A stretch of DNA of 64,000 nt from Ignavibacteria bacterium (GTDB taxonomy: Bacteria > Bacteroidota > Ignavibacteria > Kapaibacteriales > Kapaibacteriaceae): positions 733,262 through 797,261 of the forward strand of contig CP054181.1 in assembly GCA_015709655.1 (NCBI GenBank), in the 5' to 3' direction. Positions within the stretch are counted from its first letter, which is position 1; every line of letters starts with the position of its first letter. Below, piece after piece: positions 34,260 to 56,788 of the stretch. A program made the position numbers and the translations under genes. The notes under the pieces were generated by a model. The model searched no databases. It was not told where the DNA came from and was given only the letters and a program-made list of their open reading frames with translations.

Positions 34260-34322
34260 CCCAATATGTCATAGTTTTGTTTACTTCTGAACGTTATTTG
34301 TTCATCTACCCCTGAGTTCCGG

Positions 34323-36452: not shown

Positions 36453-36497
36453 ACCGGGTAGTATCGTACCGTTCCACATACCTTGATAAAAACAGCA

Positions 36498-36517: not shown

Positions 36518-36606
36518 CACTGTGACCTCAGTTCGCACAACCACGAGTGCGTCGTACCGTGCCTGCTCTCCCTTGCGGGCTGGCCAAGGCAGCGGTTTGA
36601 CCTCAG

Positions 36607-36640: not shown

Positions 36641-37486
36641 CTACAAACCCGTGCGCCATACAGCGCCTAAACGGATTGAAATATTGTTCCATGCCGACGG
36701 TTCGCTAACGGTTGGAGTTGCACCCTGCAGTACAACGTATGGCGATAGCAATTGGTTCCTGTTACCAAACATACCAACCATAAAATCATGACCAAATCCA
36801 ACCTGTAAGCCAAGACGAGGCATATAGTTTACGTTTGTTTTCCACTTAATGCTGGTTTGCGGTGCACCGGGAAGATTACTTGGCAGTTCACCGTTCCACA
36901 ACTCATGCTGCCACAAGTACGAACTGGTCACCGCCACCGGTACATCCGCGGTCAGGCCTGCCATTGCAAACATTCCGGTAACACCTAACTGCGCTTTAAC
37001 CGATAGACCCAGACCGGCATACACAACCGTAGAGTGTGATTCATACACAGCATTGTAAGCAAAGTTATCGTAGGCAATCGGCACGGTTGTCTCTGCCGAC
37101 GCATGACGCCATTCTACCAACGCAGCCAACATGTAGCCAAGCTGCGAAAACCGAGGCCGATATTCCAGTGCAGGTCCAACGCCCATACCGTAACCAGTAC
37201 CGCCGGATGGCGTAACGCGGTACGTGGGACTCCCGGGTGAGGTTCCGCCCGCAAGATCAACTGTAAGCGTTCCAAAGTTTACTGCATAAAAAGCCGAACT
37301 TCCAAAACCCAGCCACCATTCGTGGTTGCGGATGAGCGTATCAAGCGGATACTCCAGGTTATCGTCGATACTGGTCTGAAATATCTGCGCGGAAACTCCG
37401 GCGGTACTCATAACCAGAACTGCAAGCAGCACAGCCATCCGATGACCGGCTCTTGTACAGGGCACTATGGTTGCAGCGTTTATCAT
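36641..37486 (-). CDS. Outer-membrane beta-barrel-like protein closing the surface block
   Basis: 281-aa protein with a signal peptide (MAVLLAVLVMSTAGVSAQ near residues 17-34) and many amphipathic beta-strands (LGFGSSAFYAVNFGTL, YGMGVGPALEYRPRF, YAGLGLSVKAQLGV, MPRLGLQVGFGHDFM), ending in the strand ISIRLGAVWRTGL. This is the look of an outer-membrane barrel of about 10-12 strands. It is the last gene of the 20-kb minus-strand block and is coupled to the preceding T9SS-sorted protein by a 4-bp overlap (37483-37486). It could be the membrane anchor or channel for the block, but no known PorP/SprF-type signature was recognised. Confidence 0.72.
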   Translation of the reverse strand: MINAATIVPCTRAGHRMAVLLAVLVMSTAGVSAQIFQTSIDDNLEYPLDTLIRNHEWWLGFGSSAFYAVNFGTLTVDLAGGTSPGSPTYRVTPSGGTGYGMGVGPALEYRPRFSQLGYMLAALVEWRHASAETTVPIAYDNFAYNAVYESHSTVVYAGLGLSVKAQLGVTGMFAMAGLTADVPVAVTSSYLWQHELWNGELPSNLPGAPQTSIKWKTNVNYMPRLGLQVGFGHDFMVGMFGNRNQLLSPYVVLQGATPTVSEPSAWNNISIRLGAVWRTGL

Positions 37487-38808
37487 CTCAGTAACTGCGC
37501 CTTGATAATTACCCTGCTGCTTTCTTCGTCAAACGAGGAATCGTTCACCGGCACAGCAACTAATAAAATATTATACAACCCCTGTGATGCTATGGAAGGG
37601 GCTTTAAACCGGAGCTCATAGCCAATGCCTATTGCGTATTCAACATTTTCAATCGGTACCCCCTGATCGTTTTCAAGGTAGCCAATCAGCCGTCCGCCCA
37701 GATCAAAAACCTTTGCGGTAAGCCTCAGCCTGTCGTCAACATTAAACCGGACAGTGGTTTGGTCCTGAAACGGATTCTCAAGGATCCGGGCATTTGATAT
37801 GATTGCGTTGGGAATGTATAAAAACAGAGTATCAATAATCTGTAGGGTATCGCCATAATACGGCAGGCGCTTGCCAATCAGTCGGTAGGCATAGGTTTCC
37901 CTGCGGTATTCCACCTGGTCATACAGGCTGTCGTGTACCTGCGGTTCCAGACAGTAGCAGCTTCGCAGACGCGGTTCATTCAGGTAGGTAAGCTGCGAAC
38001 GTCCCTGAAAATCCAGGACTTCGGGCTGCTGTCTGTTCACCAGAGCACGCTCGATGATGTAGCCTTCGTAACAGTGTTCGTCGCTGACGGTAAAGCCAAG
38101 CTGCACCTGCATATCGCCGATGTACGAGCCATAAAAATGAAAGATAGCGCCACAGGTGTCGGGAGGTGGAAGCCGTTCTTCGTACTCAACCACCATTGGC
38201 GGGTTGTCATGCCTGTTAAACCAGGTGTTACGTCCGCTGCCGTTTCCGGTTACACTGTCGTGATCAATTTTAAATGCCGCCGCCTGATAGTAATCTGAAG
38301 GCTGAACAATGGCAAGCTGCTCGGGTACGTACGATCCGTCGGTGCTGGTAATGATAAACCGTCCAAGCCGCAAGGAGTCTGTTGTAGAGGGAATTGAATA
38401 GGCATTCTGAACGCTGTCCGGACCCAGGATGTTCACCACCAGATCGCCATTTACGATGTTGTAGTCCAGCGTGTATGCATTCATAGACGCTGAATCGAAC
38501 GGCACCAGCTGCAGGTCACAGCTATCATAAACAAATTGAATTTTATGAACTGCCGGATTATAGCCCCCGGTTGGAGCAAGATCGGTGCTTTGCAGCCGGA
38601 TGGTGATGTTGGCAAAGTACTGCCACCGCTCGGTAAGGCGCCGGAGCACCAGGTCGAACGTAGCGCGGTCGTACTTGGGATCAAGTGCGGGCTTCACCAC
38701 CAGGCGGGCATCGGGTGTTTGCGCCTGTGCCACCACTGCCGTAACAAGAAGACAGAAAACGGCAGCAATGAGCATCACCGGTTTATGATGGTTAGCGTGG
38801 CGCAACAC
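37483..38808 (-). CDS. Secreted protein with T9SS type-A sorting domain
   Basis: 441-aa exported protein: basic N-terminus then a hydrophobic segment (VMLIAAVFCLLVTAVVAQAQ). The middle has several Cys residues (YDSCDLQLV, PDTCGAIFHF, SCYCLEP) and an Fn3-like part (CYEGYIIERALVNRQQP). The last 95 residues match a T9SS type-A sorting domain: RILENPFQDQTTVRFNV, AKVFDLGGRLIGYL, then QGLYNILLVAVP and IIKAQLLR. The first ATG overlaps the upstream gene by 17 bp; an internal ATG at 38775 is an alternative start. Specific function unknown. Confidence 0.78.
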   Translation of the reverse strand: MLRHANHHKPVMLIAAVFCLLVTAVVAQAQTPDARLVVKPALDPKYDRATFDLVLRRLTERWQYFANITIRLQSTDLAPTGGYNPAVHKIQFVYDSCDLQLVPFDSASMNAYTLDYNIVNGDLVVNILGPDSVQNAYSIPSTTDSLRLGRFIITSTDGSYVPEQLAIVQPSDYYQAAAFKIDHDSVTGNGSGRNTWFNRHDNPPMVVEYEERLPPPDTCGAIFHFYGSYIGDMQVQLGFTVSDEHCYEGYIIERALVNRQQPEVLDFQGRSQLTYLNEPRLRSCYCLEPQVHDSLYDQVEYRRETYAYRLIGKRLPYYGDTLQIIDTLFLYIPNAIISNARILENPFQDQTTVRFNVDDRLRLTAKVFDLGGRLIGYLENDQGVPIENVEYAIGIGYELRFKAPSIASQGLYNILLVAVPVNDSSFDEESSRVIIKAQLLR

Positions 38809-40894
38809 TCAGTCTGCCTCTGTTATTCCATGAAACGTTAGCGTCGCGTGTTGTGACGATACCGTTTAAGTCGGTATCGGTCAGCAGGTATCCCTCAAGG
38901 TTCCGTGTGCCCCAGATCAGGTTGTAATCAGAGCGTGCAATCTCATCAGCCCCTTCCACTTCGCCTGCAATGAGGGCAAAGAAACGCCGTCCGCTGCTGG
39001 TGCCCACCAGCTTCTCTGCGGCAGCACCTCCCAGCAGGCCGCTGCCGGTGGTAAGGTCAAGCACAAAGCCAAGGTTGGAGCGGTCCACAACAACTTTATC
39101 CTCGGTAACCACGGCAAGGTGGTTACGATGGCGGAACACAAGGTTATACAGGCCTGCATCAATGCCTTCAACAATGGGCGGACGCAGCGTACGCGGATCC
39201 AGCACCGCACCGGTGGTCGTGAGCAGCAGGTTCTGCACCAACTCGGCGGGCCCCGAGCCGGTTGGTGTTTTGCGGTACTCAACGGTAACCCAGTCAACAA
39301 TACTGTCGCCAATAACGATGGCCGTATCGGTTAGTCTTTTCGGATCAAGAGTGTACGGATACACAGCCGGTGCCATTGTCGGGATTCTGCCGGCGGCTGC
39401 AAGGTCGGCTGCCATAACGGGAGTGAAGTCTTCACCGTAGGTCCGAATGGGTCCTTCCAGCAGCAGCCGCGTGTTGAGTACCCAGATTGGGCCTGTGGAC
39501 AGTCCGATGGCAAAGTCGCCGCTGGCACGCACCATGCCTGCCGTACTAAAGCGCCATGCTTCCATGGGATTCGATGTTGCTGTGGTTGGCAACTGCGAGA
39601 AGCCGTAGGGGTTGTATGAAAGACCATTGTAACGCATGAGCACCAGCTGGGTTTCCTGTCCCACAAGCTGCGGTATTGTTTCTACAACCTGCGGTGTTTC
39701 AAGTCCGTCAATTTCTTTATTACGCCATGCGTAGCCAATGGTAAGCATGTAGGTGCTGTCGGCAACACGGTCGCCATTGGCGTCGCGTGCTTCGAGCTGC
39801 AGGTATCGGTCAACCTTGTAGGTAATGTCGGTAAGGGGCTCGGGCACGGTTTTGGGTTTACTTCGTATTGCGTACTGCACTACTGCACCGCGGCCGGCGG
39901 CATCATCAAATTTAATTGACGTAAACCTGTTATTCATGACCATGGTTTTCCCCTCAACCAGGGTAGTACGGACCATGGTTCCGTTCACTTCGGGCCACAT
40001 TCCCTTAAAATCGGGATCGTTGACCGATGCATATCGGAGTTCATAACGCTTGCCGGTATCGGGTTCGGTAAAGATGTGTCCGCGCAGAATAAGCGAGTCA
40101 TTCACGGTAATGCTGTACGGTAGTGAGAGTCCGGCAACGTCATCATTTACAAGGTGCCCAATAGCCGAGGAATTTCTGATCATCTCGGGTCCACCACGCA
40201 TGGCGCTGTCACCATAATACCTCAGGTGCATGCGGGTATCCCATGCGGGTTCCATAGCAATCGATCCGCTGTCATCACGCCACAGCCACGACTGATTGAG
40301 CATGGCAATGTTGTCAGTAGCCGAGTTATCAAGTCTGCCGTGTTGCAGGTCTAAGCGCTCAACCACCTGTAATCCGCCACCGTGCGTGATGCGCGCACCG
40401 GCGTTATTGTCAAGTTCCACAATTGGAATGCTGCCTGTGCCGCTAATATCCTGTAGTTCGGTGCCGCGAAGCACAAACCTTCCGTATCTGGCACCGGGGT
40501 TAATATGTCCGTCATGCACAACCGTCCGGTTTGCCTGTATCCAGGTGTCGGGAATCAGCGTAAAGGTCACGGAACTGTCAAGCGACCAGAAGAGGCTGTC
40601 TGCCACCAGAGGCCGAAGGGGGCTAAGGATCATCTTCCGGCTTTTGCCTTCAAAGTGCACGTTGGCGTAGGTTAGCTGGGCAACAAGCTGCGAGTCAGCG
40701 GCGTAGTTGCGTTCGTAGCGGACAATACCGCCAATACTGTCCTGCGTGAACTGCGCGTCACCCCTGATTTTAATGGTACCTGTATTGCGGATTTCGCCTT
40801 CGGAGAACAGCGAGCTGGGCTGCTGACTGACGGCAATGGTAACTGCCGATAGCAGCACGCACCAGATAATTGCATTGTTTAACTTTTGTGTCAT
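38792..40894 (-). CDS. Large secreted protein with dockerin-like C-terminal loop
   Basis: 700-aa secreted protein with signal peptide (AIIWCVLLSAVTIAVSQQ). The N-terminal third has parallel-beta-helix-like repeats (GEIRNTGTIKIRGDA, GGGLQVVERLDLQHGRLD). The C-terminus ends with one calcium-loop motif DTDLNGIVTTRDA (about residues 676-688), the 12-residue dockerin/EF-hand pattern, followed by NVSWNNRGR. Such tails occur on large surface proteins of Bacteroidota. It shares the N-terminal N-x-G-x-I style with the next gene upstream, to which it is coupled by a 4-bp overlap (40891-40894). No enzymatic signature was seen. Confidence 0.7.
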   Translation of the reverse strand: MTQKLNNAIIWCVLLSAVTIAVSQQPSSLFSEGEIRNTGTIKIRGDAQFTQDSIGGIVRYERNYAADSQLVAQLTYANVHFEGKSRKMILSPLRPLVADSLFWSLDSSVTFTLIPDTWIQANRTVVHDGHINPGARYGRFVLRGTELQDISGTGSIPIVELDNNAGARITHGGGLQVVERLDLQHGRLDNSATDNIAMLNQSWLWRDDSGSIAMEPAWDTRMHLRYYGDSAMRGGPEMIRNSSAIGHLVNDDVAGLSLPYSITVNDSLILRGHIFTEPDTGKRYELRYASVNDPDFKGMWPEVNGTMVRTTLVEGKTMVMNNRFTSIKFDDAAGRGAVVQYAIRSKPKTVPEPLTDITYKVDRYLQLEARDANGDRVADSTYMLTIGYAWRNKEIDGLETPQVVETIPQLVGQETQLVLMRYNGLSYNPYGFSQLPTTATSNPMEAWRFSTAGMVRASGDFAIGLSTGPIWVLNTRLLLEGPIRTYGEDFTPVMAADLAAAGRIPTMAPAVYPYTLDPKRLTDTAIVIGDSIVDWVTVEYRKTPTGSGPAELVQNLLLTTTGAVLDPRTLRPPIVEGIDAGLYNLVFRHRNHLAVVTEDKVVVDRSNLGFVLDLTTGSGLLGGAAAEKLVGTSSGRRFFALIAGEVEGADEIARSDYNLIWGTRNLEGYLLTDTDLNGIVTTRDANVSWNNRGRLSVAPR

Positions 40895-43011
40895 GGCACA
40901 CCCACAAGTACGGTACCTGCGTTATTAACGGCGGCACCGGGTGCCACAATCAGGTTGGGTGTTAAAAAGCTGCTACCACGATACACAATTAAACCGCCGT
41001 CGATATTGTCGGCACTTGTATCAAGAGCGTCGGCCTGCACAAACGAGGGAACAATACGCTGAGAGAGCAGGCTGACGGTGGAGTCGGGTACTAACGAAAA
41101 TGAGTTCCAGACGCCGGGGGCTTCGTAGCCAAACAACAGGGCGCTGTTGGGCGAGCTGCCAATGATAACCTGACGCGCCATACTGTCGGGATAGGCTTCC
41201 CGGATGGAATAGTAATCATTGGCGCGCACATAGCCGGTATGCACCGTAAAGCCGTCAATGATCACCCTGTCCTCCGGTTCCGGCTCCCGCGCTTCGTCCC
41301 ACGTAAACGGATTACTCCAGCGTCCGGAAGCAACTGCCTTGAGCACATCACGGCTTGCACGCAACAACAGGTCGTTGCCGTTGTCCAGACGCAGGTTGTC
41401 AGGTCCGGCACTGGCAATGCCGGTAAGCTCAACATACGCAATGCCGGTACTTTGGGAAAGCGGACGCCGGGTGTAGGTTGGCGGTACGGTAGGTGTGAGT
41501 TTAATGGAGTGTTCGTTTGGCGGCGCGAAGGCATTATACATTTTTACCAGTCGCTCCGATGTTGTGGGCACCCATGTTGACGGGATGTCGGTGACCTTGT
41601 ATCCTGCCCTGATTTTAGCCTGCCAACTGCCTTCGGCGGTGACGGTAATTTTTCTGAAGATATCGGTCTGGTCGTTATAGTCGTTCGGACGTGTTTGCGG
41701 CCGAACGTCCATGGTAAATTCCTGTGGCAGTACGCTAAACAGTGAGTGGGTTTCACTGTTGTTATACACATACGCCTTGTTAGTGTCGGCCCCCCTCAGC
41801 AAACGTCTGAAGGCGCCAATAACTTCAGCATTATTGGTGTAGGTAGCGTCGCCTACGGTTAGGCTCATGGTATGCGGTACCATCATCACATTGGTGTCGC
41901 GCACCATAAGTGCCGATGCCACGTACACGTTGCCGTTAGCGGTTTTCAGTGTGTTGGCGGTGGTAAGGTTCCCGTACGGATTCGATTCGGCTGTAGCCTG
42001 AATTACTTGCGGATCCTGTTGTCCTGCGTATTCCACCAGCGAGGTAGGATGGAAGGTGGCATTGGTGTAGTTGGGATAGGCATTCCGGTAGTCACCAAGA
42101 ACCAGAAGGTGGGTGTTCTCACCCATGGCAAGCTGAGCGGCGGCGTTATTCTGTAATCCAACCACAATATCGGGATAGATGATAACGGTGTCGGAATGAT
42201 CGGCAACAACAAACAAACCATTGGCAACATCTACATTGGCATGCAGGTGGGTTAGCCCCCAGCCGGTGGTCTGACGTCCGCCTGCCCAAATCGTTACCTG
42301 TGCGTTCACAAACGAGTGCGAGCCCCAGGTAAAGTCGCCTTCAACGTACAGCGGGCTTACCGTGTCATTCCAAAAGACTCCGTCCATACGCACTTCGTAG
42401 CCGGATGCCACGGTTTTTGGACCGTGCAGCAGGGTCATGTTGTTATACCGGTTTACTGTCCCGCTCAGCTCCTTCTCCTGCATGATGTACTGTGGTTCGG
42501 TACCGTCGTAAAAAAAGGTGCCATTGTAGGTGCGCGGACCCGAGAGGAAGATGGTGTACTGTTCCGACACGAAGACACTGTCGGGTATCAGTTTCCCAGC
42601 CTTGTCGGCCATTTCTAAATTTTTATAATACCGTTGCTGTACCAGTTGCTGTCCATCCGCCGGTTGTGCATACCGCACCATCCCGGGAACCCGCCACTGC
42701 GGGTTATGTCCCAGTGCCGTAGCCCCTTTCGTATCACCCGCACCGTCAGTAAACGTATTGCCGGTTCCTTCGAACTGAATGATGTTGTTGGAGATATTCG
42801 AGTAGGGCGCATCGTTCTTAAAGGTTCCGTTGTTATCACGGAATCTGATAACGCCGCTGTTGATAACGGTACCGGTGACGCTGTTTTCAAGGTTCTGAGC
42901 GTTACCGTGCACGGTTCCCCACCCAACAAAAAGACACAGGAGCAGAACCACACCGGCAGGTATTGGGTTCCGCGACTGCGAATGGGTTGTATGGTTATAG
43001 CTGTTCAGCAC
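40891..43011 (-). CDS. Large secreted beta-helix-type protein with G8-like segment
   Basis: 706-aa exported protein with a signal peptide (VVLLLCLFVGWGTVHGNAQ) after a 20-residue polar N-terminus. Beta-strand repeats (SGVIRFRDNNGTF, NNIIQFEGTGNTF) suggest a beta-helix or adhesin-like rod. Near residue 570 the segment SGRWSNPFTWDEAREPEPED followed by VIIDGFTVHTG resembles the start of a G8 domain. No T9SS sorting domain is seen at the C-terminus, which ends with strands (LTPNLIVAPGAAVNNAG). It lies 11 bp after the small secreted protein gene. Function unknown; structural or adhesive role inferred from the repeats. Confidence 0.7.
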   Translation of the reverse strand: MLNSYNHTTHSQSRNPIPAGVVLLLCLFVGWGTVHGNAQNLENSVTGTVINSGVIRFRDNNGTFKNDAPYSNISNNIIQFEGTGNTFTDGAGDTKGATALGHNPQWRVPGMVRYAQPADGQQLVQQRYYKNLEMADKAGKLIPDSVFVSEQYTIFLSGPRTYNGTFFYDGTEPQYIMQEKELSGTVNRYNNMTLLHGPKTVASGYEVRMDGVFWNDTVSPLYVEGDFTWGSHSFVNAQVTIWAGGRQTTGWGLTHLHANVDVANGLFVVADHSDTVIIYPDIVVGLQNNAAAQLAMGENTHLLVLGDYRNAYPNYTNATFHPTSLVEYAGQQDPQVIQATAESNPYGNLTTANTLKTANGNVYVASALMVRDTNVMMVPHTMSLTVGDATYTNNAEVIGAFRRLLRGADTNKAYVYNNSETHSLFSVLPQEFTMDVRPQTRPNDYNDQTDIFRKITVTAEGSWQAKIRAGYKVTDIPSTWVPTTSERLVKMYNAFAPPNEHSIKLTPTVPPTYTRRPLSQSTGIAYVELTGIASAGPDNLRLDNGNDLLLRASRDVLKAVASGRWSNPFTWDEAREPEPEDRVIIDGFTVHTGYVRANDYYSIREAYPDSMARQVIIGSSPNSALLFGYEAPGVWNSFSLVPDSTVSLLSQRIVPSFVQADALDTSADNIDGGLIVYRGSSFLTPNLIVAPGAAVNNAGTVLVGVP

Positions 43012-43022
43012 GATACGTTTGC

Positions 43023-43406
43023 CTATGGCTTCCCGATAACAATTTCGCCTTCGTTGTTCAGGGTTCCGCTGTTGCGGATTGTACCTTCAATCGTTAAAAC
43101 ACCGGGCTTGTACCGCCAGCATGTTGCCGTCTGCCTGATCTCCAGGTCACCGGTAATTAAACCGGAGGCGTCCATGTACAGGTACAGGCCGCCGGTTATC
43201 ACCGAAACCGAGCCGTGAAACTCCACGGTGGAGAGGTTCATTGCGTTAATTCGTCCGGCATCAATCCGGGTGTCGCCCGATACATACAACAGTCCCCCGC
43301 CGGTAACAGTAATGGTTTCACCACTGTTTACCAGTACCGTTTGCTGTGCTTGCACAGAGGCAAGTGACAGGAGGCCAAGGGCTGTTATGATAATGAACTT
43401 TATCAT
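43023..43406 (-). CDS. Small secreted beta-solenoid-like protein
   Basis: 127-aa exported protein: signal peptide (FIIITALGLLSLASVQAQ) followed by repeated short strands separated by Gly/Asn turns (GGGLLYVSGDTRIDAG, STVEFHGSVSVITGG, GVLTIEGTIRNSGTLNN). The NSGTL/EGEIVIG end resembles the N-terminal repeats of the two large proteins that follow, so this may be a stand-alone version of that fold. It sits 28 bp after the fibre gene and 11 bp before the next one. No family recognised. Confidence 0.65.
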   Translation of the reverse strand: MIKFIIITALGLLSLASVQAQQTVLVNSGETITVTGGGLLYVSGDTRIDAGRINAMNLSTVEFHGSVSVITGGLYLYMDASGLITGDLEIRQTATCWRYKPGVLTIEGTIRNSGTLNNEGEIVIGKP

Positions 43407-43434
43407 CCGGGTACCGAGTGCGACACCGTCGCGC

Positions 43435-45264
43435 TTAGTTATCGCTCCTGAACAGTTCTATCCATACCGACTGTGTGCTATCCCAGAGTAGCGTAATGGT
43501 ATCCTGATTTTGGAGTTGCACGTTGGCATTCATTGCCATGTTGCCGCCGTTAACGATTTCTACGCCATTGGTGCCTGTGGCAACGCATCTGATAATCAGA
43601 CGCAAGCCGTCGTACGCGCCGTTGGCAAGGGTTACCGTGCGGTTGGCCGGACCGTTATTGCTGCTTAACCGCAAAAAGGTAATGCCGTCAAGCTGTGCAG
43701 CGGTTATCGCCTGGTCATCGGCGGTAACATTAACGGTATTTACAACACTGTTCACAACAGTTGTCCATTCCAGGGTTGCACTGCTACTTGTAGCACCCGA
43801 GGCAATGGAGAGAACCTGGCCGGTTTTACCAATGGATGACGGCAGGGTGTAGGTGTTGTTAGCAGACATGCTGGATGGTGCCTGCAAGGCTACGTAGTTG
43901 GCAACTCCGGGAAACGAGCCGGTAGAACCGTACGATTCATAAAACCTGAGCTGACGCTGCGTACCGTCATTATTGGCAAGCCAGAGGTCGGCATTGGCAA
44001 TAACAAACGACGCTGCTGCCGAGACCGACATAGCACTGTTCTTGCCGTTAAAACCAAACGAGCCGTCGGCGCCGGAGGCAAGCGTCATGGCTTGTCCGCC
44101 CGGGATTGCTGCGTAGTCCGAGCCAATGGTGTTGTTTTGTCCGCCGCCAATAAAGCTGTAGCTGCCGGTAATGTTGTTGTTATTCCCACCGGTAATCGAG
44201 CTGTGGGTGCCGGTACTCATCACATTATCTTCACCACCGCCAATCACGCCGTAGTCCTGACCGTTATTGTTATCGCGTCCGCCGCCAATCACGGCATAGT
44301 CACCGCTGATTTCGTTATCGTCGCCGCCGCCAATGGCAGAGGCAACACCGCTGACGCTGTTACCGTCACCGGCACCAATAAACGAGTATTCGCCACTGAC
44401 GCTGTTGTTATTCCCTCCACCGATAGCGCTGCGCTTACCTGACGCGGTGTTATTTGATCCGCCACCCACAACGGCAGCCGTATCGGTGGCCTTGTTGTTA
44501 GCACCGCCGCCAATTACCGTGTACATTCCGCTGGCAAGGTTGCTTGCACCCCCGCCAATAAATGAGTTGCCACCGGAGATGGTGTTGTTTTGTCCGCCGC
44601 CAACAAAGCTGTTGGTGCCGGTAGAGGTGACGCTGTTGCCTTGGCCGCCACCAATACCTGAGTTCTGTCCACCGCTGGAATTGGAAAGCCCGCCCAATAC
44701 TGCCGAGCCGGTACCGCTGGCGGTGTTGTTTTCACCGCCAACAACCGAGGCTTTTGCACCCGAGGCGGTGTTGCCCATGCCGCCAAGAACAAGCGAGTAG
44801 TCGCCGCTGGCAGTGTTATTACGTCCGCCCGCAATGAGCGAATAATTGCCGCTGGCGGTTTGCGAGGGGTTGGTGCGCGATCCCTGAAAGTCGTTAGACC
44901 ATGCCCCGGGTGTACCGGTAATACCGCCTTCGTTCAGCGGACCCACCCTGCGGAGGTTGCCGTTGGTGCTCGACACAATTTCGAATGACATACCGGTGGG
45001 AACACCCCAGATAAGCTGGTACGGACCGGTGCCGGTAGCCATGAGAGCTAACCCGGACGTTGCCGGCGGCTCCGGCGGCCATACCATGGTGTACGGCGTG
45101 ATGGTAGCGTTGGGTGGTGTAAGCGAAATAAAGTCACCGGGCTGAACGGCACGCTCGATGCGGATTTCCTGGACGGTGATCTGACTGTTCTGTGCCGAAA
45201 GAACGGTGGCAGAGATGATGGCCAATGCCACCACAAGGGTGCGGGATAATACTGTAATTTTCAT
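43435..45264 (-). CDS. Secreted fibre-like protein with 15-residue YadA-head-type repeats (paralog A)
   Basis: 609-aa secreted protein. Signal peptide (LVVALAIISATVLSAQ), a 110-residue N-terminal domain shared with the neighbouring paralog (IRIERAVQPGDFISLTPP), and then about 17 tandem repeats of 15 residues of the form ASGxYSxIGGGxNNT (residues about 137-394). The spacing and the S/G/N positions resemble trimeric autotransporter head repeats that form left-handed beta-rolls. The C-terminal 200 residues end with DTITLLWDSTQSVWIEL and RSDN; no YadA anchor barrel and no T9SS domain are present. The start at 45264 shares one base with the upstream stop (TAATG). A trimeric surface fibre is the likely form. 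Confidence 0.8.
   Translation of the reverse strand: MKITVLSRTLVVALAIISATVLSAQNSQITVQEIRIERAVQPGDFISLTPPNATITPYTMVWPPEPPATSGLALMATGTGPYQLIWGVPTGMSFEIVSSTNGNLRRVGPLNEGGITGTPGAWSNDFQGSRTNPSQTASGNYSLIAGGRNNTASGDYSLVLGGMGNTASGAKASVVGGENNTASGTGSAVLGGLSNSSGGQNSGIGGGQGNSVTSTGTNSFVGGGQNNTISGGNSFIGGGASNLASGMYTVIGGGANNKATDTAAVVGGGSNNTASGKRSAIGGGNNNSVSGEYSFIGAGDGNSVSGVASAIGGGDDNEISGDYAVIGGGRDNNNGQDYGVIGGGEDNVMSTGTHSSITGGNNNNITGSYSFIGGGQNNTIGSDYAAIPGGQAMTLASGADGSFGFNGKNSAMSVSAAASFVIANADLWLANNDGTQRQLRFYESYGSTGSFPGVANYVALQAPSSMSANNTYTLPSSIGKTGQVLSIASGATSSSATLEWTTVVNSVVNTVNVTADDQAITAAQLDGITFLRLSSNNGPANRTVTLANGAYDGLRLIIRCVATGTNGVEIVNGGNMAMNANVQLQNQDTITLLWDSTQSVWIELFRSDN
44085..44856 (-). repeat. About 17 tandem 45-bp repeats (head-type beta-roll)
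   Basis: Region of paralog A coding the 15-residue units. At the DNA level the 45-bp units are diverged in the variable positions but keep the GGxGGxxxxAAC (Gly-Gly-x-Asn) core. Such arrays can gain or lose units in frame. Confidence 0.75.
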
Positions 45265-47144: not shown

Positions 47145-47174
47145 TGTTTCGCTCCCAAATAGTTATAAAAAATG

Positions 47175-48527
47175 TTAGTTGTTGCTCCTGGATAATTCCA
47201 CCCAGAGTGCTCCGCTCCAAATTAAGGTTATCGTGTCATCGGCTCCTGCTACCCAGGCACCGGTTAAATTAACGTTTGCTGCCGGAACGTCGTTCATGGC
47301 AATAAAATTGGGTTGTCCGTTTAATACACGCAAAATCAGTATCTGCCCGGCTGCAAGGCCGGGTGTCAGCGTTAGCCCAAGCCGGTTTGCACCGGCCGGG
47401 TTCAGTACGATGTACGATCGGTTCCCAACGCCGACGGGAAAGTTGTTGGCGTTCACAACAATGTTGGCTCCTTCCCGAATGGTGATGCCACCGTCAACGT
47501 CCAGGGAGGTTGCCGGGCTGTTGATGTCGATTCCTACCTTGGTCCTGTCACCGTCGGATAGCGATGGCGAATGCATAAAGACGATGCTTTTGCTGTTGGA
47601 AACGTTGGCACCCTTGCCAAAGGCCATGCTTTCGGCTCCGGTGACAACGTTGTTCATACCTAAGGCGGCGCTGCCAATGCCTGTTACACGGTTGTTCATG
47701 CCCATGGCAATGGCGTTTTCACCGGAGACACGGTTACTGTCGCCAATGGCTATTCCGGCCTTGGCCGTTACGGTGTCTTTATTTCCGAGCGCTACCGCAA
47801 ATGATCCCGAAACGTAGCTGCGCTGCCCGGAAGCAAGGCTGAAGTCGCCGGTAATGCCGGATTCCAGGCCGGAGACGATGGATGAGTACTTTCCGGTTAC
47901 GCTGTTGGTGTTTCCGGTTCCAATAAACGAAAACAGGCCGGCAACACCAATGGAATTCTGCGAGCCACTGCCAATGAGTGAGTACTCACCGGCTATGGTG
48001 TTCTGGGCACCGGAAATGATGCCGGAAAATCCACCCGAAGCGGTTTGTGAGGCGGCACTCCGGAATCCCATCAGGTCAATGGAGTACTGTCCGGGGGTTC
48101 CTACGATACCGTTGGTGTAGGCAGATTTCCGACGGATGTTATACTGTCCGGCCGTGACTTCTTCCAGAATACCGCTGCCGGTAGAGGTAGTCCATGCCGG
48201 ATAGCCTGCTCCGTTAATCGTAAGAATTTGTCCGGGAGTGCCGGCAGAGAGCCACTTCATGTCGGTAAATGCCCCCATGTTGTCACCCAGGAAGAGCGAT
48301 CCCACTGAGGGGGCTCCGGCAAGGGGCATCTGCATGCGCCACGAGCCGGCAAGCAGGGTGGCCGTGTTTGCATGGATGGTTAGCCTGCCGTTTACGGTGT
48401 TGCGCAGTACCAGCGAGTCCGATAATGTGCCTTGTGCCCAAGCCCCTTGCCATGTAATACAAAGAGTTGCAATGACTACACCGAGCCATAGGGCATGGTT
48501 ACTGCGATATGGTGTGTGCTGCGTCAT
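47175..48527 (-). CDS. Secreted fibre-like protein with mixed 14/15-residue head repeats
   Basis: 450-aa secreted protein: signal peptide (ALWLGVVIATLCITWQGAWAQ), an N-terminal beta domain, and about 11 head repeats at residues 163-318. The first are 15-residue units (IAGEYSLIGSGSQNS); the later ones are classical 14-residue YadA-type units (VSGENAIAMGMNNR, VTGIGSAALGMNNV). After a VGIDINSPATSLDVDG segment typical of fibre proteins, the C-terminus ends with DTITLIWSGALWVEL and RSNN, the same module as the two paralogs downstream. It is coupled to the preceding gene by a 4-bp overlap (48524-48527). Confidence 0.8.
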   Translation of the reverse strand: MTQHTPYRSNHALWLGVVIATLCITWQGAWAQGTLSDSLVLRNTVNGRLTIHANTATLLAGSWRMQMPLAGAPSVGSLFLGDNMGAFTDMKWLSAGTPGQILTINGAGYPAWTTSTGSGILEEVTAGQYNIRRKSAYTNGIVGTPGQYSIDLMGFRSAASQTASGGFSGIISGAQNTIAGEYSLIGSGSQNSIGVAGLFSFIGTGNTNSVTGKYSSIVSGLESGITGDFSLASGQRSYVSGSFAVALGNKDTVTAKAGIAIGDSNRVSGENAIAMGMNNRVTGIGSAALGMNNVVTGAESMAFGKGANVSNSKSIVFMHSPSLSDGDRTKVGIDINSPATSLDVDGGITIREGANIVVNANNFPVGVGNRSYIVLNPAGANRLGLTLTPGLAAGQILILRVLNGQPNFIAMNDVPAANVNLTGAWVAGADDTITLIWSGALWVELSRSNN

Positions 48528-49429
48528 GGGTTCATTACTGTCCAGTGAATTGAGTAGCCTATTCCAATGGTGGCAGATGTTACAATGGTAAAGTTGTCGG
48601 CACCCGGGTTTACGGCGGTAATCATTGCGTGAACGGCGGGTGCGGCCGGTCCGCGGACGGTAACGTTGATTACAGCACCGGGAAGCAAGTCAAATGCTCC
48701 GGTGGAGACCACAAAGCTAGTGGCATCTACACCGATGGTGTATATGCCCTTGGCAATGCCGAGTGCGGCCAGGACGTCCGAGGCACTGCGCTTCCGGAGG
48801 TCACCGTTGTTGTCAGCCGTAACCACGCCTTCTCCGGGTGAGAGGGCTGTTACGGGAGCAGAGGCAAGGCTGGTCAGGCGCACGTTGGGCGTGCCGGCAA
48901 CGCCGCCTACATGCAGGTTGTAGCCGGCAGCGGCAGTGGTGCCAATGCCAAGTTCGCCGGTGGCGTTTACGCGCAGACGCTCGGTGTTGGTGGTGCGGAT
49001 AACCAATGGCTGGGCGTCGGTCGTGCCAACGAAGTTGGTTGCAGGGTTGGTGCCGGTGTTGCCAAGCAGCGTCCAGAACGACCCTGTAAGGTATGAAGCC
49101 GGGTCAACCCAGGCGGGAATGCCGGCGGTAATACCCAGGATATAGCCTGCCGCACCCGGTGCCAGCCATGAAAGTTGGGCATCGCTGCCCGACACCGTAC
49201 TGAGCTGCAGGCTGCCCGTGGTTCCTACTGTAGCAGGCTGGATAAGGCTCCAGTTCACGGTTTGTCCGTCGGCGCTCCGCAGTGCGGTATAGTTGGCATT
49301 GTTATTACTCAGGAGCTGCACGTGGCGGGTACGCACCGGCAACTGCGCATGAGCGCACACCACACCCGCCAGCAGTGCAAGAACTGTCAGCAGGTTTACC
49401 GGTGTTGTATGTAGCGTCCGAAGTATCAC
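48524..49429 (-). CDS. Secreted tail-fibre-like protein with INW/HW..NP end module
   Basis: 301-aa secreted protein: signal peptide (LLTVLALLAGVVCAHA), mature N-terminus QLPVRTRHVQL shared with the next gene upstream, and a fibre-like centre (FWTLLGNTGTNPATNFVGTT, then ERLRVNATGELGIGTT). The C-terminal module (GEGVVTADNNGDLRKR, VLAALGIAKGIYTI, ending YSIHWTVMNP) is homologous to the end of the giant repeat protein (DEGIVVADAAGKLTKR, ending INWLVKNP). It lies 111 bp after its upstream neighbour, with a spacer full of hairpins, and overlaps its downstream neighbour by 4 bp. Confidence 0.75.
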   Translation of the reverse strand: MILRTLHTTPVNLLTVLALLAGVVCAHAQLPVRTRHVQLLSNNNANYTALRSADGQTVNWSLIQPATVGTTGSLQLSTVSGSDAQLSWLAPGAAGYILGITAGIPAWVDPASYLTGSFWTLLGNTGTNPATNFVGTTDAQPLVIRTTNTERLRVNATGELGIGTTAAAGYNLHVGGVAGTPNVRLTSLASAPVTALSPGEGVVTADNNGDLRKRSASDVLAALGIAKGIYTIGVDATSFVVSTGAFDLLPGAVINVTVRGPAAPAVHAMITAVNPGADNFTIVTSATIGIGYSIHWTVMNP

Positions 49430-49450
49430 GTTATGTTACAATCTTTTTCT

Positions 49451-49524
49451 GCCGCACAACCATTGTGCTGCTTCTGCAGCACAGGAACACCTGCGCTGCA
49501 GAAGCCGGAGGCTGTGCCTCCGGC
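49451..49524. terminator. Three consecutive hairpins in an intergenic spacer
   Basis: Three adjacent inverted repeats: CACAA/TTGTG with flanking pairs (49451-49471), TTCTGCAGC/GCTGCAGAA (49472-49503) and GCCGGAGGC/GCCTCCGGC with a 3-nt loop (49504-49524). On the minus strand none is followed by a clear T-run, so they could act as transcript stabilisers, attenuators or processing sites between two co-oriented surface genes rather than as a strong terminator. Confidence 0.45.
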
Positions 49525-49540
49525 AATGGGATGATAAATC

Positions 49541-50362
49541 TTAAAAGTTTACCTGCCAGTTGATAAATCCTGTGATATCCAATGGTGCCGTGCTTTCGAC
49601 AGTAAAGGATGTTGCCGTTTGGCTAGTAACCTGAATGATGTTGGCACTTAAACCTGTCCATGTAACCAGAACCGTTGCGGTGGCGCTCATGCTTGTTGGA
49701 GTTATGGTCTGGGTATAGGTACCGTTACCGGCTGTCCGACCAAACTCAAGATTTGTTGTCGGGCTCGCAACCCAAGATCCCGTACCGTCACCGTTGCTAA
49801 CATAAATGTAGTTGGCTGTACCGGCACCAGCCTGGTTGGTGGATGGGGTGACGTAGTAGCTGCCTGCTGCTGTTGCATTATCAAACGTTAGAGTGTAGTC
49901 TGTAGTACCCGGGGTAAGCACTACACCGCCCATGTTAACCGTACCGTCTGATCCAATAACAACACCTGTTCCGCTTGTACCAACGGTCACATTGGTACCA
50001 TCGAACGTGAAGTCGGCATCGCCGGTAAGTGTGTTCGGGTCAGACCAGTAAGCAACCTGTCCGGCAGCACCGGCACCGTCAACGAGTGAAGTCGAAATCT
50101 CCACCCACTGCGAAGTGAAATTGCCACTTGATTCCGTAACGCGCAGGTAACCGGAGCTGCCTGCAGTTATTCCGGTTGAGGCAGGCCATTCCAACGAGTA
50201 TGTGGTTGTTGCAGCCGGAGCTGTTTGTTGGAAGTAGCCACTGGTAGCACCATTGAGCTGTAAAGACCGTGTGCGCACAGGCAGTTGTGCAAATGCCTGC
50301 GTACTAAAGATGAGCATGGCGCCAAGAACTGCGACGCCGGTCCAGAGTGAATGTAACTTCAT
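49541..50362 (-). CDS. Secreted tail-fibre-like protein
   Basis: 273-aa secreted protein: signal peptide (LWTGVAVLGAMLIFSTQAFA), mature start QLPVRTRSLQL as in the downstream paralog, then fibre-like domains rich in Thr, Ser and Gly (VAYWSDPNTLTGDADFTFD, VVIGSDGTVNMGGVVLTPG, SYYVTPSTNQAGAGTANYIY). It ends with FINWQVNF, a variant of the INWxVxNP end module. The start at 50362 is preferred because the signal peptide begins there; the frame is open to 50476. Gaps of 125 bp before it and 178 bp between its end and the next start's hairpin spacer suggest looser coupling than elsewhere in the block. Confidence 0.75.
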   Translation of the reverse strand: MKLHSLWTGVAVLGAMLIFSTQAFAQLPVRTRSLQLNGATSGYFQQTAPAATTTYSLEWPASTGITAGSSGYLRVTESSGNFTSQWVEISTSLVDGAGAAGQVAYWSDPNTLTGDADFTFDGTNVTVGTSGTGVVIGSDGTVNMGGVVLTPGTTDYTLTFDNATAAGSYYVTPSTNQAGAGTANYIYVSNGDGTGSWVASPTTNLEFGRTAGNGTYTQTITPTSMSATATVLVTWTGLSANIIQVTSQTATSFTVESTAPLDITGFINWQVNF

Positions 50363-50487
50363 GAGAGAACTCCATGAATTGTGAATTAAAAAATGTGAGT
50401 ACTGTGAACCAATTGTTTGTGTGTTCATCTCCCACACTCCCGTATTGTGATAAAAAACTGAGGTTTCCTGTTTCATTGTCTTCCTCG

Positions 50488-52478
50488 TTATGGATTTTTA
50501 ACAAGCCAGTTAATGGCTTCTCCCGGGTTTAAACCGCCCGGGAAACTGATGGAAAAGGTGCTCGCTGTGCGGCTCCCCGCAATCACGAACGGTGTTATTG
50601 ATACGCTCGACGTTGCTTCGGGCGTAATGCTGATTGATGCATTACCGTTGAGAACAAAACCGGTAGGCATCGTAATTACCACGGTAAACTGCGGAGCAGC
50701 AGTGGTGTTTTCGTAACGACCTGCGCTTATACCCAGTAGGCCCAAGAGGACGTCCTTATCACGCTTCGTTAATTTCCCGGCAGCATCAGCTACAACAATC
50801 CCTTCGTCTGTGTCCAGTGGCGCAGCAGAGGGTGGTCCGGCAAGGGACGCAACAGTCACGTTTCCATCGGTTCCTCCAATAGTTAGTCGAAGAACATTAT
50901 TCGTTGCAAAGTTTAAGTTTTCAGGGTTGGTGGTTCCCAGGAAGTTGGCAGAGCCTACGTTGTTGCCCGACAAGCTCCAGTAGTGAGCGCCCTGCGGAGC
51001 TACCCATGCAGGTTCTCCGTTCCGGATTTCAAGCATCGAGTTCTCGAGTCCGGGGTTCAGGACCGACGAGGTGTTGGTGGAGTCGCCCACTACCATCTGG
51101 CCGTGCAGCAATGGGAAGCGTGGCAACTGACTAAAGGATGCGGTATCCAGGAAGTTGCTTTCACCAATCACGGTGAGTGCAGCCAGGGTGAGCGAATCTG
51201 TCCACCGCGGTGGCGCAGCAGGTCCGCCGGATACCAGCAGGTCACCCGGGTCACCGGCAGAGCCGTCAATGTATAACCGGCTGCTGTCGCCGCGAATGTC
51301 CAGTGACTTATAGGTTGCCAGCCCCCTCAGCGCAAGCGAGTCGGTATAGGCGGGCGTCTGGTTAGCCCCCTTACTAATCAACACCCAGCCATTAGTGCCG
51401 GGGTCGCCATTGGCAAGCAGTGCGCTGCCTGTACCGCTCAGATTTAAAGGGGCTTTGATATGTGTGGGGGTTTCAACAAAGAATTCGCCGCCGGCGGTAA
51501 AGGTTGCCCGCAACTGCGAGTTGGTGGCTAACCGCAGGTCATTACCATCGGTGGTGCCCAGGAAGTTGGCTGCACCGGTGCCGGCATTACCGTCGAGCGA
51601 CCAGTAGTTGGCCTCGGCCGGTGACACCCAGGTGGGTACACCATTGTTTACCTGGAGCATCGAGCCTTCCAGACCGGGTGCCATGGGGACGGCGTGGTTG
51701 GTACTGTCGCCCACCAGCATGTACCCCTTGGTTAGCGGCATCACAGGCAACAAACCAAAGGTGGCAGTATCGGCAAAGAATGATTCACCGGTAACGGTCA
51801 GGGTTGAAAGCTGCAGTGAATCGGTATAGCGCGGGGTAAGGCCCGGACCCGACGATACCACAACCTGTCCGGCACTGCCCGCATTGCCGTTAAAGCTAAG
51901 CGGCAGGTTGGCACCGTTCAGGTTTACCGGTGTGTTTAGCGTGGTGGAGTAGGCAGTTCCGTTCAGAACAATCAGCGGACGGCCACCGGCGTAAAGCTCA
52001 AGGTCGCGGATGCCGGTGGTGTCACGATTTCCAAGAATTGGTGACTGTACCGCTGTATTGCCACCAACATTCCATGCGGTGTTCCGCAGCAGCAAACCAA
52101 GATTGAACCACTGCACCTGACCGTTGAAGATGGCCAAAAAGGTACTGTCACCCGCCGGTGCTAACGGTGCAGCAATGTTCTGTGCATTGCCCACCAACAG
52201 ATAGTTATTCTGCAGCGGCAGAACTGGCAGGTTGGTAAAGGTGGCAGTATCGGTAAAAAGGGCCGGGCCGCTTACCGTGAGTTCGGTTAGCGTAAGTTTC
52301 GAGGTATAGGCAGGCGTAGCTCCCGCACCCTGCGATACCAGCACCTCGCCGGCAACGCCGGCATTGCCGTTCAGGACCAGGGCAGAGGCCGTACCGTTCA
52401 GCGACAGTGTGCCGGTGATGGCCGTTGGTACGTCAACCAAGAAATCGCCGCCGGCAGTAAAGGTTGCCCGAAGCTGTG
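50488..52478 (-). pseudogene. 3' part of giant repeat surface protein (separated from its 5' part by an insert)
   Basis: About 663 codons open from the insert junction to a TAG/TAA stop at 50488. The frame contains fibre-type modules (ANYWSLDGNAGTGAANFLGT, LRLATNSQLRATFTAGG) and most of a 960-bp unit whose other copy lies in the 5' part. The C-terminus is the end module DEGIVVADAAGKLTKR to INWLVKNP. The frame continues a few codons into the insert (an ATG at 52497 inside insert sequence), but this is not a real N-terminus: there is no signal peptide. Joining CAGCTT here to the 5' part at TCACAG restores ATNSQLRATF exactly and in frame, so these are two parts of one gene of about 1,300 codons. 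Confidence 0.8.
51512..52471 (-). repeat. 960-bp tandem unit, copy in the 3' part
   Basis: 320-codon unit nearly identical to 54858-55817. Both begin and end at the same point of the module (around NSQLRA), so before the insert they were directly adjacent. Confidence 0.85.
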
Positions 52479-52775
52479 GGTCGCAAAATGGACACATTAG
52501 GGTAGGTGTTTTTGGTTACGAAAGTAGTTGGTTCAGGACGTCGCCGTGGCGTCAATCAGCGCGTCATACGGCGGGAGGTGGCGTGTAACGCCCCTGCCGG
52601 CGGATTTGCCGGGTGCGGCTAACGTGCTGAACCGTGCATTTCGTGTGTTGCCGTGGGCTGGGCATTATAAAGCTCGACTGCGCAAATCGTTGCGCTCGAC
52701 CGTGGACATCCGAGTGTGGCTGGCTGACGCCGGTGGCGTTGCTCAGCAGATCGTCAAGGCCGGCAACCGCTGATG

Positions 52776-54320
52776 CTGGTCACGTTGTGCGCAACGCCGC
52801 CTACTGCGGCTGGCGGCGCGGCGGTCTTGAAGTTCGCTGGTGGCGTTTCCGCAGACCGGTGTTGTGGTGCGGATACCAATGGCTGGCGTCGTCTGCAGTT
52901 TGCAGGTTTGCTTTGCACAGCGTCGAACGACGTAGTACAGGTCACAGGCGAATACTGGCGGTCAGGATATAGCCTGCCGCGCCGATTGGCATCGCTGCGA
53001 ACCGTACTGAGTCAGCTGGTGGATATACTGCTGCGGCTGGATACAGATTACGGTTTGTCCGTCGGCGCCGCAGTGCGTAGTTATCCGGCCGGTACGCGCA
53101 CTGCGCGCACACACCGCCAGCGTGCAGAAGCGCAGTGGTGTGTCCGATCGTGTCTCGCCGCTTCCACAAGGAACCTGCAGAGCGCGTGCCCCGGCAATGG
53201 TGTCTTAAGCCTGGTTGTAAATCGTATAATGCTGGTAGATTTGCCGTGCTTAACCTGAATGATGGCCCGTCCATAGAACTGGTGGCGCCTGCTTGGAGAT
53301 GATGCGACGCCCGAGTCGACCAAACTCAAGATTGTCCCAAATCTACCGTCACCGGCTAACATAAATGTGTGGCTTACAGCCAGCTGGTTGGTGGATGGGT
53401 GACGTAGCTGCGCGTGCTTATCAAACGTTAGGTGATCTGTCCGGCACTACCGCCCAGTAACGCCGTCATTAACTGTTCGCGGTCTTATCCGTGATCATCG
53501 CCGGTAATGTTCGTCGACCGTACATTCACGGTCGAGGTTCGAAATCTCACTGAGTGCCTGATTCCGTAACGCGCGGTCACCGGGCTGCGCGTTATTGTTG
53601 AGGCAGGCATTCGAGTAGTGGTGCGCTGTTTGTTGACCTGGTAACCATTGAGCTGAAGACCTGTGGGCGTGCAAGTCGCTAAGATGACACGCGAATGCGA
53701 CGCCGGTCGGGATGCTTCAACCCGCAATTAAAGACTCAGCCAAGTTGTGTGTTCATCCCACTCTTGTGATAAAACTGAGGTTCCTGTCCATTGTCTTCCT
53801 GGTTTTAACAAGGTTAAGCTAACGCCGAATATGTCTCGCCGCAATCGAACGTGTTGATACGCCGATTGCGCGTAATGCTGATTGATGCATTACCGTGAGA
53901 ACAACGGTGGCTGATCCACTGGGAACGTGGTTGGATCTACGAGGGGACGTCTATCACTTCTTAATTCGCATCAGCAATCTCGTCTCGTGGCGCAGCGTGG
54001 TCGGGACGCAACAGTCACGTTCCATCGTCTCAAGTCGTCGACATCGCAAGTTGTTTAGTTTCTGAAGTTGCAGGTCCGTTGTCGACAAGCTCCAGTGTAG
54101 GCGCTCGTTGTTGCATCAGTTCGGTCGGGTTCAGGACCGACTGGGTCCATCACCTCGGCCGCAGCAATGCGTGGCACTGCAGGATGCGGTATCCGAGCCC
54201 AATCTAGTGCACAGGTACGATCTCCCGCGGTGGCGCATGGTCCGCGATACCACAGTCACGTACGCGCCTCATAGCTGCTGTCGCCGCGAGATTCCAGACT
54301 TATGGTTCCAGCGCGAGCGG
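52776..54320 (-). repeat. Deletion-ridden copy of 48880-51345
   Basis: Short blocks such as ACGCCGCCTAC, ACCAAACTCAAGAT, TGGTTGGTGGATG, TGATTCCGTAACGCGC, GTAATGCTGATTGATGCATT and GGACGCAACAGTCACGTT appear in the same order as in 48.9-51.3 kb, separated by many small deletions and some substitutions. The hairpin spacer at 49451-49524 is also recognisable near 53150-53205. None of the three genes copied is open. The pattern (mostly deletions, matching blocks identical) is more like raw long-read error than old pseudogene decay. Confidence 0.75.
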
Positions 54321-54499
54321 CAACAGATCGACATCGCTTGTTAAAACTGGCCAGGGTTTCCCATTCTGCCGCGTTCCAAGCGACCGCTTACGCCAAGGCT
54401 GCACCGTACTTCGCGCAAGCCTCGTCAGGTGTCCATCTTCTGCCCGGCAGCTGGCGGCTCCAAGGCGTACGCTTGTCAGTGCGCATGATAGCGCCGACC

Positions 54500-54783
54500 G
54501 ATCGGCGATGCCAAGCTAACGGCCACTGGAGGTTAGCGTACGTCCGCAGCCACCGTCTCAGGTCGCGATCTTTTAATGCTTTTGCATCATGCAAACCAGT
54601 GTGCGACGTTGGATGTCTGTCACTGCTCCAGTTCTTAAAGATTTTGCTGGAAAAGTACGGGCCCTTCCTGTAGTTTGTGCATCCACTGCCGCTTTCAGGA
54701 CCATCAGTACGATAGTCGCACGTCGATGCCAAGCTCCGACCGGCGTCCCCAGCTACCATCTCAGGGCGCGACGTTTTGCTTCA
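54500..54783. repeat. Diverged direct repeat of about 70-100 bp at the right end of the insert
   Basis: GATGCCAAGCT occurs at 54507 and 54725, and TCTCAGGTCGCGA-type sequence at about 54556 and TCTCAGGGCGCGA at about 54760. The two copies differ by small indels, so they could be two noisy versions of the same transposase 5' region. Confidence 0.45.
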
Positions 54784-54857
54784 TCTAAATGCGAGGTGGA
54801 TGTTCATTGCTCTTTCCTAGATTTGAAATCACCCCGTGTGTCCACCAGGACCACTCC

Positions 54858-55817
54858 AGCTGTGAGTTGGTGGCTAACCGCAGGTCATTGGCATCGGTGG
54901 TGCCCAGGAAATTGGCTGTGCCGGTGCCGGCATTACCATCGAGCGACCAGTAGTTTGCCTGGGCAGGTGCTACCCAGGTGGGTACGCCGTTGTACACCTG
55001 TAGCATCGAGCCTTCCATACCGGGCGCCATGGGGACGGCGTGGTTGGTACTATCGCCCACCAGCATGTAACCGCTGGTTAGCGGCATCCTGGGCAGCAGA
55101 CCAAAGGTGGTAGTATCGGCAAAGAACGATTCACCGGTAACGGTCAGGGATGAAAGCTGCAGTGAATCGGTATAGCGCGGGGTAAGGCCCGGGCCCGACG
55201 ATACCACAACCTGTCCGGCACTGCCCGCATTGCCATTAAAGCTAAGCGGCAGGTTGGCACCGTTCAGGTTTACCGGCGTGTTCAGTTCGGTGGTGTAGGC
55301 AGTTCCGTTCAGAACAATCATCGGACGGCCGCCGGCGTAGAGCTCAAGGTTGCGGACACCGGTGGTGTCAAGATTTCCAAGAATTGGAGATTGTACTGCT
55401 GTGTTTCCGCCAACAATCCAGGCGGTGTTGCGCAGCAGCAAACCAAGGTTGAACCACTGCACCTGACCGTTAAAGATGGCCAGGAAGGTACTGTCACCCG
55501 CCGGTGCTAACGGAGCAGCAATATTCTGTGCATTGCCCACCAGCAGGTGGTTAGTCTGCAGCGGCAGAACTGGCAGGTTGGTAAAGGTGGCAGTATCGGT
55601 AAAAAGGGCTGGTCCGCTTACCGTGAGTTCGGTTAGCGTAAGTTTCGACGTGTAGGTTGGCGTAGCTCCCGTACCCTGCGATACCAGTACCTCGCCGGCA
55701 ACGCCGGCATTGCCGTTCAGGACAAGGGCAGAGGCCGTACCGTTCAGCGACAATGTGCCGGTGATGGCCGTTGGCACATCCACTACGAAGTCGCCGCCGG
55801 CAGTGAACCGCGCCCGA
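54858..55817 (-). repeat. 960-bp tandem unit, copy in the 5' part
   Basis: Partner of 51512-52471; encodes modules from NSQLRARFTAGGDFVVDV to GTTDANDLRLATNSQL. Differences between copies are scattered single substitutions (for example NTAWNVGG versus NTAWIVGG). Confidence 0.85.
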
Positions 55818-56788
55818 AGCTGTGAGTTGGTGGCAAACTGCAGGTCGGTAGCATCAAGCGTCCCCAGGAAGTTCGATGCGTCTAAACCTGTGTTGCCGGA
55901 AAGTGACCAGTAGTTGGCCTGATCCGGACGTACCCAGGTGGGTGTACCGTTAAACACCTGGAGCAGCGAACCTTCCATGCCCGGGCTAAGCGGACGTGCG
56001 ATGTTGGCGGTATCGCCAACCAGGATGTTGCCGTACTGCAGCGGGAATTCGGGAAGAAGCGAAAACCGTGCGGAATCGGTAAACGTGGCAGGACCGGTGA
56101 CCAGCAGACTGCTCAGTGACAGTGAGTCGGTGTACTTGGGGGTGGCACCCGGACCACGGGATACCAGAATGTGGCCCGCAACACCTGCATTGCCGTCAAG
56201 CAGCAGTGCCGAGGTTTGGCCGCCCAGATTTAACTCACCCGTAAGCAGAGTGTTCCCCGTGATCTCCACCTCGCCCGTTGGCGTGAAAACCATTCGGGTG
56301 GTGTTATCGGTTTTGATGATCAGCGGACGCTGATTGGTTGTTCCCAGGAAATGTTTTGACGGGTTCACGGAGTCGTTACCCATCAATGACCAGAACACGT
56401 TTGACCCCGACCCGCCATCAACATTAATATACAGCATCGAAACCCAGATCGGACTGAACTTGGTGCCGATGTTATACTGAAGGGTGTTGGTGGAGGTGTT
56501 GTAAATCACCAGGCCGGTGGCCGGCATTGCAATGTTGTCGCGCTCCTGCTGCGTTAACCGTGGAATCAGCAACCCTTTGTCTGTTGACTGCAATTCCAGA
56601 ACCGCCGACGGATCAGGCGTGGTAGTACCGATACCAACGTTGTTCGTGTACGGCTGTGACCAGGCTCCGGTACCGCAAAAAACAGCAAACAAATACACCA
56701 GAATTACAGTTTTCGTGTGCTTGTTACATGGAAGCCGTAGGTCAACACGGCAGAGCCATCTGGTCACTGAATCAACGAGGCGTAACAT
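54858..56788 (-). pseudogene. 5' part of giant repeat surface protein (split by insert)
   Basis: About 643 codons before the insert; the frame then reads on for 24 codons of insert sequence and stops at 54785. N-terminus: a 27-residue polar stretch and a signal segment (VILVYLFAVFCGTGAWSQ), then the Bacteroidota fibre-protein opening NNVGIGTTTPDPSAVLELQS and GLLIPRLTQQERDNI. Several modules of the form YWSLxGNxGxxxxNFLGTxDAxDL follow, and one whole 960-bp unit. Joined to 50488-52478 it would encode about 1,306 residues. A TAnnTTTG box lies 74 bp upstream. As it stands it would give a truncated secreted product. A long, rod-like adhesin or fibre is the most likely original function. Confidence 0.8.

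Follow-up and report, generated by a model that had tools for sequence, protein, structure and literature searches.

A conserved gene core in the Kapaibacteriales may form the base of a modular surface fibre

What might a row of eleven genes on one strand, encoding repeat proteins, solenoid-like proteins and a terminal barrel, build at the surface of a bacterium? The window analysed here, 64,000 nucleotides at positions 733262-797261 of a single-contig genome of 2.84 Mb, holds such a block on its minus strand, running from 56788 to 36641. We propose, with a probability of about 0.6, that the block encodes a modular surface fibre, in which variable distal parts are carried on a conserved stalk that is docked to an adaptor exported by the type IX secretion system (T9SS) and to a barrel anchor. 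The genome contains 109 matches to PF18962, the T9SS sorting domain, which we take as a stand-in for the genes of the T9SS machinery.

Layout of the block and its upstream genes

The ORF coordinates and spacings bear out the description in the initial annotation of eleven co-oriented genes joined mostly by 4-bp overlaps or short gaps, provided that the two halves of a giant repeat gene are counted as one. At nine of the ten junctions the genes overlap or lie at most 30 bp apart; the sole long gap, of 111 bp, separates FB2 from FB1. The remaining gaps measure 11 bp (giant/FB2), 30 bp (HD3/HD2), about 11 bp (HD2/HD1, counted from the likelier ATG of HD1), 28 bp (HD1/SOL) and 11 bp (SOL/BH2), and the overlaps 4 bp (FB1/HD3), 4 bp (BH2/BH1), 17 bp (BH1/T9L) and 4 bp (T9L/OMB). 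On the same strand, a terminator-like hairpin of 14 pairs with a T tail (36492..36523) lies 3′ of the last gene, OMB. Convergent to the block, two TPR-histidine kinases and a BNR/sortilin-like protein are encoded at 29935-36452, and kinase-like genes also lie 3′ of OMB in several loci of the family. Hydrophobic N-terminal segments, judged by eye, are present in the block proteins. Pfam gave no match for BH1, BH2, T9L, OMB, FB1 or either half of the giant, and its scan of the block genes yielded no catalytic domain above its cut-off.

The first gene of the block is interrupted. Its N-terminal half (54861..56788, minus strand) and C-terminal half (50488..52480, minus strand, upper edge approximate) are mutually in phase, and the 960 nt that end the former share 91% identity with the 960 nt that begin the latter; between the two halves lie some 2.4 kb (52480..54857, edges approximate) with 20-33 stops in every frame. 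This inserted stretch aligns to ~48580-51680 with a score of 702, against 116-157 for shuffled sequences, and its central 1440 nt differ from that region by 15 mismatches, 8 inserted bases and 892 deleted bases in 320 deletions. We know of no biological process that gives such a pattern. Because differences dominated by deletions are typical of a read that is prone to deletions and was left unpolished, we regard the stretch as a deletion-riddled copy of this region and almost certainly an assembly artefact, the split being the likely result of an unpolished read segment placed into the repeat. Hence the giant repeat protein described in the initial annotation survives as two in-phase repeat halves, but not as an open gene, and a probable assembly error is flagged within a single-contig genome. 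Tandem Repeats Finder reported no repeats between 47000 and 57000, the 960-nt repeat of the giant exceeding its longest period of 500.

The giant is followed, all on the minus strand, by two short fibre-like proteins, FB2 (49541..50476) and FB1 (48524..49429), and by three head-repeat proteins, HD3 (47175..48527), HD2 (45264..47144) and HD1 (43435..45315, annotated from a TTG, with a likelier ATG near 45252). Pfam agrees with the earlier assignment of the three head-repeat proteins, matching LbR_Ice_bind in HD1-3 and YadA_head in HD3. In these head repeats they resemble YadA-type trimeric autotransporter adhesins; however, none of the ten block proteins scanned with Pfam carries a YadA anchor domain, and the ends of HD1-3 are instead sandwich domains that are Phage_depo_C- or StcE-like in Pfam, with a Phage_depo_C-like C-terminus in HD2. 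The scan also returned neither an usher nor a chaperone of a chaperone-usher pilus, so that the absence of both this system and a YadA barrel, as first noted, holds. A search of PHROGs produced two matches, both weak, one of them between FB1 and the phage tail-fibre family phrog_9942. We also weighed a phage source for the fibre genes and set it aside, since the hydrophobic segments at the N-termini and the conservation of the operon in bacteria speak against it.

A conserved core and its solenoid-like proteins

The promoter-distal part of the block, BH2-BH1-T9L-OMB, recurs among relatives. BH2 was found in 74 of 99 of them and T9L in 75 (a count that includes a few copies cut by contig ends); 70 have both and 20 have neither. 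Where the two share a contig, T9L lies downstream of BH2, on its strand and no more than 6 kb away, in 61 of 61 pairs. The same core order is seen in the twenty fetched loci, apart from a few cases in which genes are fused or added or one member is unrecognised, and BH1 and OMB occupy their expected positions in most fetched loci. Within the phylum sample BH2 is confined to the order, save for three local matches of ~40 residues, and the matches listed for T9L outside the order span its FnIII and CTD parts only. The genes upstream of the core vary: the window's family has several that encode fibre and head-repeat proteins, and some other families have one protein of at least 3000 residues. The genes are thus not scattered, as the initial annotation had allowed that they might be: BH2 and T9L co-occur, and their order is kept across the order. 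Its self-contained eleven-gene unit nevertheless gives way to a fixed core joined to an upstream section that differs between families.

In some families (loci L086, L087, L111, L117 and L122) an extra gene of ~500-650 aa lies between T9L and OMB, with a sorting-domain match in two of the three scanned, one of them above the cut-off. Another locus, L091 (JAGFIZ010000052.1), is titled Bradyrhizobiaceae bacterium and carries the locus of an apparent same-genus relative; the title looks wrong.

Two of the three solenoid-like proteins have a similar end. The small SOL (127 aa; 43023..43406, minus strand) and the order-restricted BH2 (706 aa; 40891..43011, minus strand) both finish in an N.G.x.G coil, whose motif is present in 10/10 SOL, 16/21 BH2 and 4/5 last upstream giants, compared with 1/135 and 0/390 background ORFs; it was defined after these C-termini had been inspected, so that the counts describe a pattern and are no independent test of it. 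The motif was not found in BH1, T9L or OMB. Likewise, a SOL profile built without the giants matches the extreme C-terminus of upstream giants, with best E-values of 2.3e-7 to 1.2e-5. Neighbouring genes are also fused in several loci: SOL with BH2 in L116, BH2 with BH1 in L088 and L112, and BH2 with the C-terminal module of BH1 in L081, L113, L115 and L116. Together, the fusions of neighbours and the common C-terminal coil suggest that the solenoid proteins may stack end to end in gene order. The third protein, BH1 (700 aa; 38792..40894, minus strand), has a beta-rich, solenoid-like N-terminal part followed by the module at residues ~456-700. Its predicted structure has a mean pLDDT of 81, falling below 50 in the last ~57 residues; Foldseek gave no match to this model at E below 0.001, and a BH1 profile search of the PDB gave none at E up to 1. 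Its "beta-helix" label is based on strand pattern and weak resemblances to tailspikes.

The C-terminal module and its possible partner

Those relatives of BH1 that bear names have titles such as Candidatus Kapaibacterium, Kapabacteria and Ignavibacteria, and residues ~456-700, an Ig-like plus dockerin-like module (38792..39553, minus strand, the stretch used in alignment A5), match proteins of Saprospiraceae, Bacteroidales, Ignavibacteria, Cloacimonadota, Marinimicrobia and others. The module occurs in 26 of 198 phylum genomes and once in the genome of the window. Pfam Dockerin_1 is matched by 4/18 BH1 relatives and 5/45 module sequences, with no Pfam dockerin match in BH1 of the window; solved dockerins appear among the PDB profile matches of the module at E 0.011 and weaker, the two best matches being cyanovirins. 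A dockerin search of the window's own genome gave no match, and NCBIfam has no model for the module, with a single unrelated match among 45 members.

Outside the order the module is C-terminal in 78 of 84 module ORFs, and in none of the 84 does a T9SS CTD occur within the same protein. A CTD gene, typically short, lies directly downstream of 12 of 32 testable module genes as against 3 of 120 other non-CTD genes (p=3e-7), in a comparison that used loci fetched for holding the module (L118-L164 minus L122, several sharing a genome), a CTD profile trained partly on module-adjacent CTD genes, some of which were counted, and a 400-bp limit and score cut-offs chosen by the analyst; the other 20 of the 32 have no CTD gene in that position. 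On contig C14 of genome G169 (226-2508), cohesin matches and the module seemingly share one scaffold-like open frame of 787 aa.

In the block the corresponding neighbour is T9L (441 aa; 37483..38808, minus strand), which consists of an N-terminal beta-sandwich, an FnIII-like domain and a C-terminal CTD-like domain whose predicted structure is of high confidence. PF18962 is matched by 7 of 20 members of the T9L family (best E 2.8e-4), and the earlier identification of a T9SS-sorted protein is therefore sustained for the family, but T9L of the window itself has no sorting-domain match in Pfam or NCBIfam. A T9L profile search of the PDB gave no match at E up to 1. As to its N-terminal domain, there was no PF00963 match at E up to 10, hhalign against cohesin gave P=0.015 and a probability of 3%, and the top Foldseek matches were generic Ig-like proteins. 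The N-terminal domains of the module's partners outside the order come closer to cohesin in hhalign (P=1.1e-4, probability 56%), this being the third comparison made, after weak first ones of which one had mixed domains; Pfam Cohesin weakly matches 2 of 10 of these domains. Judging from predicted strands, the N-terminal domain of T9L appears to have a layout similar to theirs. Cohesin matches were found in 69 of the 198 phylum genomes, and a cohesin search of the window's own genome gave weak matches elsewhere and none at T9L. One weak match (E 0.025) lies in the window itself at 20390-20734 on the minus strand, within an open frame of 828 aa.

The last gene encodes the outer-membrane barrel OMB (281 aa; 36641..37486, minus strand). 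A C-terminal OmpA domain is present in 9 of 19 members of the OMB family, all from families other than that of the window, whose members are without it. Together with the CTD matches of the T9L family, this domain on relatives of the barrel lends support to the initial suggestion that T9L and the barrel are candidates for anchoring.

A candidate fibre, its alternatives and known systems

In the arrangement that we favour, the giant, the short fibre proteins and the head-repeat proteins would be the variable distal parts, and SOL, BH2 and BH1 the conserved stalk, with solenoid ends stacking in gene order. The dockerin-like module at the C-terminus of BH1 would bind a cohesin-like N-terminal domain of T9L, T9L would be exported by the T9SS, and OMB would help to hold the complex at the outer membrane. 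The surface location, the stacking, the binding of the module to T9L and the anchoring by OMB are what we infer from these features. As a search of the genome yielded no secretin, the T9SS is the outer-membrane route that is visible here. If this arrangement is right, the conserved base of a surface fibre can be named in an order that is little known and mostly uncultured, and attention is drawn to an uncurated C-terminal module, present in several phyla, that pairs with T9SS-exported partners. It would then become a testable question by what means surface proteins that lack a sorting domain attach to, or leave, bacteria with a T9SS.

A further idea, which we consider rather doubtful, is that the Ig-like plus dockerin-like tail acts as a type IX export signal in trans. 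Proteins that have the tail and no sorting domain of their own would bind the cohesin-like N-terminal domain of a CTD-bearing partner in the periplasm and pass the T9SS together with it; in the block, stalk and fibre proteins might thereby travel on T9L. This would explain the C-terminal position of the module, the lack of any protein with both signals, the adjacency of CTD genes and the absence of a secretin.

Other accounts of the block can be weighed against the fibre. The pairing of a giant repetitive protein with an outer-membrane barrel in a single run of genes recalls SprB and SprF, and the OmpA domain of the OMB relatives recalls the PorP-PorE complexes (PMC9143113); the giant might accordingly be an adhesin that is exported by the T9SS and retained by a barrel dedicated to it, the remaining genes being accessory. 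We think this improbable, since PorP/SprF was matched neither in a Pfam scan of 19 OMB members nor in an NCBIfam scan of four OMB proteins, Pfam detects no type B sorting domain on either half of the giant (a gene interrupted by the artefact), and it is the stalk genes that are conserved, whereas the giant differs between families. A cellulosome-like or enzyme scaffold, in which secreted proteins with dockerin-like tails assemble on CTD-anchored partners that bear cohesin, so as to degrade polymers and not to form a fibre, would fit the adjacency of module and CTD partner genes outside the order and the frequency of cohesin matches in the phylum, and cohesin-dockerin pairing with CTD anchoring has been proposed earlier for Ca. 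Stygibacter (PMC8542988). The lack of a recognised catalytic domain in the block, the single copy of the module in the genome and the head-repeat and fibre-like nature of the upstream proteins all make it an unlikely description of this locus.

It is also worth considering that the operon might be shared for expression only, its products being separate surface proteins with no common structure. The free exchange of upstream genes between families is compatible with this, as is evidence for the fibre that consists of gene order and its conservation, domain and motif matches, fusions and neighbour statistics. Nonetheless, the fusions of neighbours, the common terminal coil and the strict order of the core throughout the order speak against independence, and we give this account a low probability. 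The modular fibre is the reading that we retain.

The fibre that we propose has parallels in characterized and proposed systems. In the T9SS type B modules SprB-SprF and PG1035-PorP-PorE, anchoring may run through a single chain composed of a surface protein, an outer-membrane barrel and an OmpA-like element that binds peptidoglycan (PMC9143113). The block likewise combines putative surface proteins and a barrel with, among the OMB relatives, an OmpA-like element; it differs in having neither a PorP/SprF match nor a type B sorting domain, and in that OmpA is fused to the barrel in those relatives and missing from the OMB family of the window. In Ca. Stygibacter, for which CTD-anchored cohesin-dockerin pairs have been proposed (PMC8542988), the dockerin-type C-terminus and the T9SS sorting domain belong to two different secreted proteins. 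As in this case and in non-cellulosomal modules, the dockerin-like tail and the CTD-like domain of the block reside on separate proteins; however, its dockerin-like BH1 is a stalk component of a fibre operon in which no enzyme is recognised, and the N-terminal domain of T9L is not detectably cohesin. Given these earlier descriptions, from the open-access literature, of CTD-anchored cohesin-dockerin pairs and of PorP-anchored type B proteins, the block is best seen as a variation on known themes.
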